Shown piece after piece: positions 12,400-15,627 of a stretch of DNA of 32,502 nt. This DNA is from Burkholderiaceae bacterium. Its GTDB lineage: Bacteria; Pseudomonadota; Gammaproteobacteria; Burkholderiales; Burkholderiaceae_F. The notes beneath the pieces were generated by a model. The model ran no database searches and was not told where the DNA came from. It saw only the letters and a list, made by a program, of their open reading frames with translations. The translations under genes were made by a program, and so were the position numbers. The stretch is from positions 1 through 32,502 of the forward strand of contig JACCZX010000092.1 in assembly GCA_013695705.1 (NCBI GenBank), in the 5' to 3' direction. Every line of letters starts with the position of its first letter. Position 1 is the stretch's first letter.

Positions 12400-13509
12400 A
12401 TGACGTCCGACGATTCGCTCAATCTCATTGTTGTCGAAGACTCCGAGCTCGACTACGAGCTGCTGCTTGCGATGTTGGCGCGCGAAGGGCTCAAGCCGCG
12501 CACAACGCGTGTCGAAGACGAAGCCGGCATGCGCGACGCATTCGCCAAGGCGCAAGTGGACGCGGTGATTACCGATCACAACCTGCCGCGCTTCGATTCG
12601 TTTGCATCGCTCAAGGTGGCCAAGAGCATCGACGCCGACATGCCGGTCATCGTGCTGTCGGGCGAAATGTCCGAAGACCTAGCGGTAGCGACGCTGCATG
12701 CAGGAGCGGATGATTTCGTTCTAAAAACGCGCATGTTTCGCATCGCCGCAGCGCTGCAGCACAGTTTGCAAGCTGCCGCCGCACGGCGCGAAGCACGTAC
12801 TGCTGTCTCTGCGCTGGCGCAAAGCGAAGCCAAACTGCACGCGCTAACCCAGCACCTGGAGCGGGTCAAGGAGGATGAGCGGCGCGCAATCGCGCAGGAG
12901 ATTCACGACGATATCGGCGGCGCACTGACCGCACTGAAGTTCGAGCTGGTACGACTGACGCGCGCCATGACTGACAAGCAGACGCGACCGCTTCTCGATT
13001 CGATTTCACAACTGCTCGAATCCGCGGTAGTGGCGAGTCACCGGATTCAGCATGCGTTGCGCCCTGCCGTGCTGGACGCCGGCCTGTTGGCTGCCCTTGA
13101 ATGGCTGACGCGCGACTTTGGCGAACGAAGCGGAATCAAAGTCGATCTCATTTTCAATCGCGAAGAGTTCGAGATTGCGCCGGACCGAGCAGCGGCGTTG
13201 TATCGCGTTACGCAGGAAGCGCTGACCAACGTTCAAAAACATGCACGGGCAACGCGTGTTCATGTACAGATCTTCGCGTTGACCGATGAGATTGCGCTGG
13301 AGATCGCAGACGATGGGCAGGGATTCGAGCCCGGCAGCTTGCAGGCAACACCAGGGTTCGGCGTGCGCGGCATGATTGAACGCGCGCGAGGGCTTGGCGG
13401 ATGGGCCGAAGTGTCGTCCTCGCGCCGACGCGGCACGACGGTGATGTTTTCAATTCCTCCGCAACCGGCCGACACCAGCGCCGAAGGGGCGCGCAAAAAT
13501 GGCGATTAG
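12400..13509 (+). CDS. REC-domain sensor histidine kinase (HisKA_3/HATPase, NarX/DegS-like, soluble)
   Basis: ATG at 12400, in frame with track ORF 11863..13509, whose N-terminus crosses rnpB and is rejected. REC: LIVVEDSE, VITDHNLP, VIVLSGE, DDFVLKTR; kinase: DERRAIAQEIHDDIGGALTALKFEL; ATPase: RVTQEALTNVQKHA, DDGQGFEPG, GFGVRGMIERARGLGG. Confidence 0.93.
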   Translation: MTSDDSLNLIVVEDSELDYELLLAMLAREGLKPRTTRVEDEAGMRDAFAKAQVDAVITDHNLPRFDSFASLKVAKSIDADMPVIVLSGEMSEDLAVATLHAGADDFVLKTRMFRIAAALQHSLQAAAARREARTAVSALAQSEAKLHALTQHLERVKEDERRAIAQEIHDDIGGALTALKFELVRLTRAMTDKQTRPLLDSISQLLESAVVASHRIQHALRPAVLDAGLLAALEWLTRDFGERSGIKVDLIFNREEFEIAPDRAAALYRVTQEALTNVQKHARATRVHVQIFALTDEIALEIADDGQGFEPGSLQATPGFGVRGMIERARGLGGWAEVSSSRRRGTTVMFSIPPQPADTSAEGARKNGD

Positions 13510-14140
13510 ATTATTCGTCGTCGATGATCACGCAATCGTTCGGCGCGGCATCGTGCAGGTGCTGTGCGAGAACCCGGAAGTTCAGATCATCGCCGAGGCA
13601 TCTGACTACACCGGGCTACGCAACGAGCTCAAGAAGCACGGCGAGCCCGACGTGCTGGTGATGGACGTCGGCCTGCCAGGCAAAAATGGCATCGACATTC
13701 TGAAAGCGCTGCGAGATGACCACCCAAAGTTAAAGGTGTTGATCGTCAGCATGTATCCCGAAGATCAGTACGCCGTGCGCGCTTTCCGCGCTGGCGCGTT
13801 TGGGTATCTGAATAAAGCGAGCGCACCGGAAAAGCTGCTCGAAGCCCTGGCGCAGGTGGTATCCGGCCGCAAATATGTCACGCCAGAGATCGCGCAGGCA
13901 CTGATCGAAAATCTGAATACGCCTGAAGCGGACAGTGCGCCGCACGAAAAATTATCGGACCGCGAATTTCAAACTCTAAAGTTGATCGCATCGGGTAGAC
14001 GCTTGTCCGAAATTGCGGAGGAGCTGGCGCTCAGTCCGAAGACGGTCAGCGTGTACCGGGCGCGGATTCTTGAAAAGATGGCGATGGGGAGTAATGCAGA
14101 GCTGACGCATTACGCCATCAAGAATGGGTTGGTTGAGTAG
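13499..14140 (+). CDS. NarL/FixJ-family response regulator (REC + LuxR HTH)
   Basis: FVVDDHAIVRRGI, VLVMDVGLPGKNG, GYLNKAS; LSDREFQTLKLIASGRRLSEIAEELALSPKTVSVYRARILEKM. Start overlaps kinase stop by 11 bp. Confidence 0.95.
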   Translation: MAIRLFVVDDHAIVRRGIVQVLCENPEVQIIAEASDYTGLRNELKKHGEPDVLVMDVGLPGKNGIDILKALRDDHPKLKVLIVSMYPEDQYAVRAFRAGAFGYLNKASAPEKLLEALAQVVSGRKYVTPEIAQALIENLNTPEADSAPHEKLSDREFQTLKLIASGRRLSEIAEELALSPKTVSVYRARILEKMAMGSNAELTHYAIKNGLVE

Positions 14141-14158
14141 CGCGGAAGTCGTCGTGGC

Positions 14159-14344
14159 GCGTAAGCGTTTGGCGTAGCGGCGCTGCCTGAGTCGTCGGTC
14201 GCTTCGCGACTGCTCTGCGGTACTCGCGCCAGCGGCGGGCCTGTGAACTCGCTGCGCTCAGACAACAGGCCCTTGAGGACCCGCTGGCGCTCCGTTCCTC
14301 GACGACGACTCTAAAGGCAGCGCCGCTCCGCCAAACGCTTGCGC
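14159..14344. repeat. 186-bp nested palindromic element (putative dispersed repeat / cruciform / bidirectional terminator)
   Basis: Outer arms 14159-14188 and 14315-14344 are inverted repeats, 28/30 identical. Inner pairs: gagtcgtcg(g)tcg (14189-14201)/cgacgacgactc (14300-14311), cgccagcgg (14227-14235)/ccgctggcg (14281-14289), gggcctgt (14237-14244)/acaggccc (14265-14272). Confidence 0.85.
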
Positions 14345-14454
14345 ATGGAACGTTTGCTTGGTGTGGGGTGAAAAGAGAAAAACCACCTCGTGCGTAGCGG
14401 TGTCGAGACAGCAGCAGCTGTGTCAGTTGCTGCTGCACAGCGACATCACGAGCC

Positions 14455-15627
14455 CTAGCGCGAAAATATGATGCGCTCGTTGCGTAGTAGACCTGCTTGA
14501 CCCGCCAGTGCCAGTGCCGTAATAGCGAGTGCTATTGCGCCGGGCAGCAGAATGTCGACGGCGGATACCGTCTCGCCGCGCAGCGCCCGCATCATTACGG
14601 ATTGCTGCGCCATCGCAGGCACGAACAACTGCCACGCGGCGTCGCGGATCGAGATGAACAGCGGCACGATTGGTGCAAAATTCACGAGCATCGCGAGATA
14701 GGTCGCGTAGGTTTGCGCTTCCTTGTGGCTGCGACCGTAGGTGGCCGCGAGCATGTTGAGCGACGCGATCATCGCGGAAAAAGGAAGGAGCATCACGACG
14801 AACAATGCGAATTCGTCGAGCCCGAATTGCATCAGAGCAGACAAATTCTCGCTCCGTATGAATTGCATCGCCGCCTGGAAGCCGATTAGCGTCAGAAGCA
14901 CGACAGTCGCTGAACACAGTGCGACCACACTCCACTTTCCAAGCACAAGTGCAGCGGTCGAAATAGGGTTCATCAACAGTGGCTCGAGTGAACCACGCTC
15001 GCGTTCGCCGGCGGTGACGTCGATGGCGACACTGATGGCGCCGGCCACTGAACCGAGCAATGCGAGCCACGGGATCAGGAACAAAAGCTGCGCGCCGCGC
15101 GCCTGGCTGCTTGCAAGATTGACCTCTTCGATATCGAGCGGCGCCATCACCTGCGGGCTCACGCCACGCGTCAGCAGTCGCTGCAAACCGAGTTCGCGCG
15201 TGAGGCCGCGCACAGTGGCCAGCGTTGCGCGCGTTGCGGGCTGTGCTCTGGTCGCGGTTTCATCAAACATCACTTGCAGACGGATCGTTTCGCCTGCTTC
15301 AAGTCGTGCCTCGAAGTTGGCGGGGACCACGATCACGGCGTTCTGCAGGCGGCCCGATTTTATTTGTGCTTCGTAATCCCCGGGGGCATCCTTAACCGTC
15401 GCGCCGGCGCGCTGCAGAAAATTGACCAGCGTAGGAGCCGCACTTGCGTTGGCAACGTAAACCTCGCGTTTCGCAGCGTCTTCCTCGAGGCCCGAAATAA
15501 ATTTCGATAGCAGAATCAAAGTCAGCGGCCCGACCAGGATCGAGGTCACCAATACGATCAGCCAAGTGCGGCGATCGCGCAGCGCATCTTTCAGCTCTTT
15601 GCGAAAAACCACGGCAACGGTGCTCAT
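14455..15627 (-). CDS. ABC-2 type exporter permease (NatB-like)
   Basis: MSTVAVVFRKELKDALRDRRTW, TAGERERGSLEPLLMNPISTAALVLGKW, multiple C-terminal TMs. Confidence 0.9.
   Translation of the reverse strand: MSTVAVVFRKELKDALRDRRTWLIVLVTSILVGPLTLILLSKFISGLEEDAAKREVYVANASAAPTLVNFLQRAGATVKDAPGDYEAQIKSGRLQNAVIVVPANFEARLEAGETIRLQVMFDETATRAQPATRATLATVRGLTRELGLQRLLTRGVSPQVMAPLDIEEVNLASSQARGAQLLFLIPWLALLGSVAGAISVAIDVTAGERERGSLEPLLMNPISTAALVLGKWSVVALCSATVVLLTLIGFQAAMQFIRSENLSALMQFGLDEFALFVVMLLPFSAMIASLNMLAATYGRSHKEAQTYATYLAMLVNFAPIVPLFISIRDAAWQLFVPAMAQQSVMMRALRGETVSAVDILLPGAIALAITALALAGQAGLLRNERIIFSR

Follow-up and report, generated by a model that had tools for sequence, protein, structure and literature searches.

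The window (the whole 32,502-nt stretch analysed here) comes from an uncultured betaproteobacterium of the Burkholderiales group; the nearest named relative of a protein encoded in it is found in the MAG BroJett031 (68% identity). A LuxR-family response regulator gene (13499-14140, + strand) and an ABC-2 permease gene (14455-15627, - strand) converge in the window, and a long palindrome lies in the gap between them, where an earlier note on this DNA had placed it. The palindrome occupies 14159-14344. Its outer arms (14159-14188 and 14315-14344, 30 nt each) are complementary at 28 of 30 positions (93%), and a scan of the whole window found them to be the longest strongly complementary pair at a spacing of up to 250 bp (the sole longer pair within that distance is 71% complementary). 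The smaller palindromes listed in the earlier note are present as well: TCGCTTCGCGA at 14199-14209, CGCCAGCGG at 14227-14235 with CCGCTGGCG at 14281-14289, and the inner pair GGGCCTGT (14237-14244) and ACAGGCCC (14265-14272). Nearly all of the 186 nt does fold as one hairpin, with an MFE of -121.5 kcal/mol against -80 +/- 4.4 kcal/mol for dinucleotide shuffles (z -9.5; none of 200 shuffles was as good).

Judged by its homology to other copies, which starts at ~14148, crosses a linker and extends as far as what is left of a second hairpin (~14410-14440), the 186-nt interval is one part of a longer feature. We distinguish an A-type hairpin unit (14148-14347, + strand; covariance model match at 14157-14347, 165 bits), a linker (14345-14409) and a collapsed B unit (14410-14440, - strand). 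The A unit begins 7 bp after the stop codon of the response regulator gene with a conserved outer end (GTCGTCG..), followed by the outer arms. Inside it, on the + strand, are a small side hairpin, GTCGC-TTC-GCGAC (14198-14210, defined from the unit alignment); an unpaired motif, CTGCGGTACTC (14215-14225), near-invariant across 38 units; an inner stem, CGCCAGCGG/CCGCTGGCG, that encloses the inner hairpin GGGCCTGT/ACAGGCCC (14227-14289, from fold and covariation); and a second constant unpaired motif, CTCCGTTCCTC (14290-14300), which resembles the first. Because the two motifs are similar in sequence and have the same orientation, base-pairing between them is impossible within the hairpin. The collapsed B unit, recognized by comparison with other copies, retains the outer arms only (GCAGCAGC...GCTGCTGC) and gives a weak covariance model match (14405-14438); the ABC-2 permease gene reads into this end.

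The palindrome belongs to a previously undescribed element family that is spread through one genus of uncultured betaproteobacteria. We found ~17 distinct sites in the window's own draft genome (G000; 2.96 Mb in 483 contigs, 97.7% complete), and 2 and ~38 in two other genomes of the same genus (G001 and G002; drafts 82% and 84% complete, respectively). These copy numbers are lower bounds, because many contigs start or finish inside a copy; that so many contigs end in copies also partly explains the fragmentation of the draft genomes. The dispersed REP/MITE-like element suspected in the earlier note is thus supported, by the many copies in its own genome and in two congeners and by element-free orthologous sites. 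By blastn, 64 further genomes of the family gave no copy, a covariance model run with strict filters on 300 sampled genomes of the order matched nothing beyond the genus, an exact pattern search found no match in named genomes, and 80 named loci, mostly betaproteobacterial, gave covariance model matches at chance level only. Carriage by phages or plasmids was also considered and rejected (no match in phage records, plasmid records or viral contigs). With laxer filters and 39 relatives, the covariance model gave one match in another family of the same order (G050:C67:58103-58238; 40 bits, E 2e-4). This match resembles the family in having the side hairpin CCCCTTCGGGG, then CTGCGTTGCTCG, the inner stem, GGAACTCGC..GCGCTCAGACAA and CTGCGCTACTCGG in the same order, and in standing in an inverted pair, as the family units do, but it reaches just 40 bits to the model and its outer ends differ. 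This distant hairpin relative (L240:1501-1636, L244:18021-18641) lies within an element of ~620 bp that has 32-nt inverted ends and GGTTACTTTCTTTGG-type hairpins, with a second, inverted copy ~200-350 bp away.

A complete element is ~420-470 bp long and consists of unit B (outer end GCAGCAGCGGCTGGCGCAGC), a linker of ~65 nt and unit A in reverse (outer end ..CGCTTGCGCRCYGCGAC). B and A are homologous hairpin units in opposite orientation: turned the same way, they align over ~190 nt. Units are ~185-200 nt long (full B units in other copies, ~190 nt), and each has an outer stem, a GTCG stem, the small side hairpin, unpaired CTGCGGTACTC, an inner stem that bears a further hairpin, and CTCCGTTCCTC opposite. 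The B-linker-A arrangement, i.e. paired units in opposite orientation with a conserved spacer as in REPs and BIMEs, is found in most copies of G002 and several of G000; the collapsed-B form of the window recurs in G000 (C320) and in G002 (C42, C14). In one G000 locus (L012, 1496-1847, contig C121), a full A unit comes directly after a truncated one and points the same way, both starting with AACTTCATCGC, which suggests a local duplication. In another (L017, ~1415-1445, contig C137), TGTCATTCCCGCGCACGCGGGAACCCA, a dRS3-type CGTC-1 REP in appearance, adjoins a degenerate copy of the element.

The structure of the units is under constraint. In the alignment of 38 units, 94% of the cells are paired and 27 of the 48 pairs show two-sided changes; the covariation score is 0.40, compared with 0.13 for shuffles and 0.05-0.08 when the partners are slid. 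For example, the side hairpin occurs among the copies as GTCGC-TTC-GCGAC, GGCAC-TAAA-GTGCC, GCCAC-TAAA-GTGGC and GTCCC-TTC-GGGAC. Some of the covariation could come from copying of one arm to the other rather than from selection on structure. Against this, the unpaired motifs, which such copying would erase, stay constant across the 38 units while the stems show compensatory changes, and the other arm holds no partner for the side hairpin. The two constant motifs (14215-14225 and 14290-14300 in the window) are possibly a binding site for a protein. A coding function was rejected, as every frame is open in 23 of the 38 units at most and the lengths of the units span all three classes modulo 3; so was a known RNA family (no Rfam match at gathering score for five loci, including that of the window).

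The linkers contain, reading from B to A, a stem (e.g. GCCTCG-CA-CGAGGT) followed by T-runs; a run of at least four T is found in 17 out of 21 linkers, and the other four have none. In the window, this intrinsic terminator-like site (14372-14401, - strand) has a GC stem at 14401-14382 followed by a T-tract, reads from the side of the ABC permease, and is predicted to serve the minus-strand ABC operon. The earlier note had offered a bidirectional terminator as an alternative: a single terminator-like site does exist, but it is outside 14159-14344, in the linker on the minus strand, and reads in one direction only. Placement was tallied by hand for each unique site, with neighbouring genes called from ORFs and codon usage. 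Gene 3' ends face the B end in 32 out of 35 sites (binomial p 4e-7) and the A end in 17 out of 27 (Fisher p 0.011 for the difference), in a tally whose sites are not strictly independent and which includes a few judgement calls. Stop codons are mostly 2-30 nt from the element, the closeness to gene 3' ends that is typical of REPs and BIMEs. This placement fits a terminator used from B to A. Termination is not the sole reason for it, since genes on the A side run in both directions and 4 of the 21 linkers lack a T-run.

Five sites that are filled in G000 are element-free in a congener, a presence/absence polymorphism between relatives such as MITEs show: the window site, C320, C132 and C260b-C215 (empty in G001) and C463-C112 (empty in G002). 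General insertion into a pre-existing stem-loop was rejected, as only one of the five empty sites, that of the window in G001 (z -2.9), has a fold clearly better than that of shuffled sequence. G000 and G002 have nine filled sites in common, and these shared insertions could be old rather than new. At most of them the internal modules differ between the species and the copies are closer to paralogs in their own genome than to the ortholog, which means either recurrent insertion at one position or gene conversion. Gene neighbours across the element differ from those in the congeners at G000:C101 (the contig of the window), C39, C463 and C112. In G001 a convergent EAL gene comes immediately after the response regulator gene; in G000 this EAL gene lies at the end of contig C39, by a B unit, and the response regulator gene adjoins the ABC permease gene across the element. 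The window junction is either a rearrangement by recombination between copies or an assembly that joined two copies wrongly, and the same applies to C463/C112.

As for how copies move, the association with a TnpA-REP transposase raised in the earlier note found no backing: there is no PF01797 (Y1/RAYT transposase) match in G000, G001 or G002 (drafts 98, 82 and 84% complete), and mobilization as a RAYT-dependent REP was rejected accordingly. A retro-element moved by a resident reverse transcriptase was rejected too (no PF00078 match in the three drafts). The family could instead be a strict MITE, derived by internal deletion from a DDE-type insertion sequence whose terminal inverted repeats would be the A and B ends; the inverted pair with similar outer ends, the several tens of copies and the empty sites in congeners all suit this explanation, which we nevertheless hold to be unlikely. 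The target-site duplications that the earlier note proposed to look for did not emerge, the longest word shared by a copy's own flanks averaging 4.8 nt versus 5.1 nt for mismatched flanks (exact ends are uncertain); no copy enclosing an ORF, as a parent insertion sequence would, was seen among ~57 sites, in genomes that are fragmented at these repeats; and each 'end' forms a separate hairpin of 190 nt that has covariation of its own. That the palindrome is an integron attC site is hardly credible. It is long and imperfect, close to stop codons, and the A arms of many copies carry GTTGGGC and GCCCAAC, which fit GTTRRRY and RYYYAAC, but the two cores come in the order opposite to that of attC (RYYYAAC...GTTRRRY), B units have no cores, copies are scattered instead of standing in cassette arrays, and the search for an integron integrase returned none above the curated cut-off (general tyrosine recombinases were found below it). 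With the core order wrong and no IntI above the cut-off, we rejected this candidate.

Two further explanations need no mobility. The copies may be a vertically inherited structured terminator or 3' RNA, alike through gene conversion, as the nine orthologous sites filled in two species, the homogenization of copies within each genome and the strong compensatory evolution would allow. We regard this as quite improbable, because five sites that carry the element in the window's genome lack it in a congener, copy number ranges from 2 to ~38 between congeners, and some copies are located between gene starts or upstream of them (C246/C38, C288). A one-off intrinsic terminator of the ordinary sort between convergent operons, to which the convergent stop codons and the terminator-like 14401-14382 (-) would point, is very improbable: the hairpin at 14159-14344 has no T-tract of its own, and a single-copy terminator is refuted by the copy number of the dispersed family.

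The explanation that we consider probable is a dispersed, non-autonomous family of structured repeats of one genus, built as B-linker-A with a terminator reading from B to A, that supplies 3' ends to genes. Copies would insert, or be kept, directly after stop codons, and the transcript from upstream would have its 3' end in the element: RNA polymerase would pass the B hairpin, stop in the linker and leave a strongly structured 3' end, so that in vivo the element may both terminate transcription and protect the RNA. Mobility would depend on a trans-acting enzyme, whose target is perhaps the single-stranded hairpin or the constant unpaired motifs, and gene conversion would homogenize the copies. 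A bolder version, which we consider unlikely, is that the family is mobile with no dedicated transposase, is spread by a structure-specific process that reads the constant unpaired motifs of a folded single strand, and by now serves dozens of operons of the one genus as a common 3' terminator that evolves in concert, its older relatives being found in other parts of the order. How palindromic repeats that lack a transposase (CGTC REPs, YPAL and others) are moved, and whether they are tolerated or used, is a long-standing puzzle. The present family has abundant two-sided covariation among paralogs, unpaired motifs that stay constant, sites that are filled in one congener and empty in another, and a directional terminator oriented in agreement with the genes beside it; this makes both its mover and its role in ending transcripts directly testable.

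REP units are 20-40 bp long with one stem and a GTAG or CGTC tag; in the CGTC type, for which no transposase is known, the unpaired tag is beside a stem of 8-9 bp whose first pairs are A-T (Di Nocera 2013, PMC3733652). REP dimers and BIMEs are dispersed and intergenic, between convergent or co-directional genes, at most ~20 bp from stop codons, and mainly head-to-head pairs with a structured spacer (PMC3733652). Our family is similar in its dispersed intergenic palindromes, its pair layout, its proximity to stop codons and the lack of a detected transposase (cf. CGTC REPs), and differs in its nested units of ~190 nt, its side hairpin, its two constant unpaired motifs and its linker terminator. 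Among larger elements, the nearest palindromic repeat is YPAL/RU-2 of Yersinia, a single unit of ~168 bp that is not A+T-rich, is mobile between related species with target duplications of 3-26 bp, targets sites beside dyad symmetries and is presumed to influence upstream transcripts (PMC2229807). Unlike YPAL, our family has two units paired, and target duplications were not seen. ERIC/IRU and Correia/NEMIS are non-autonomous elements of ~100-160 bp whose transcripts fold into long hairpins and affect mRNA processing; they have target duplications, and their terminal inverted repeats are TA-ended (PMC2229807). Neither such TA-ended repeats nor target duplications were seen in our family. The EFAR repeats of Enterococcus faecalis are modular palindromic elements of variable length with two stem-loops, which insert into a pre-existing stem-loop; our family, in an unrelated host, is like them by description in being modular and in having two stem-loops. 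We keep the family apart from REPs and BIMEs because its units (~185-200 nt) exceed the REP size of 20-40 bp, because the (C)GTCG that precedes the side hairpin stands before a stem of 5 bp without A-T pairs, and because the three drafts have no PF01797 match for the RAYT (Y1) transposase that accompanies GTAG-type REPs. We class it as a family of the REP/MITE kind, several times larger than the known repeats of that kind, and assign it to none of the named families.
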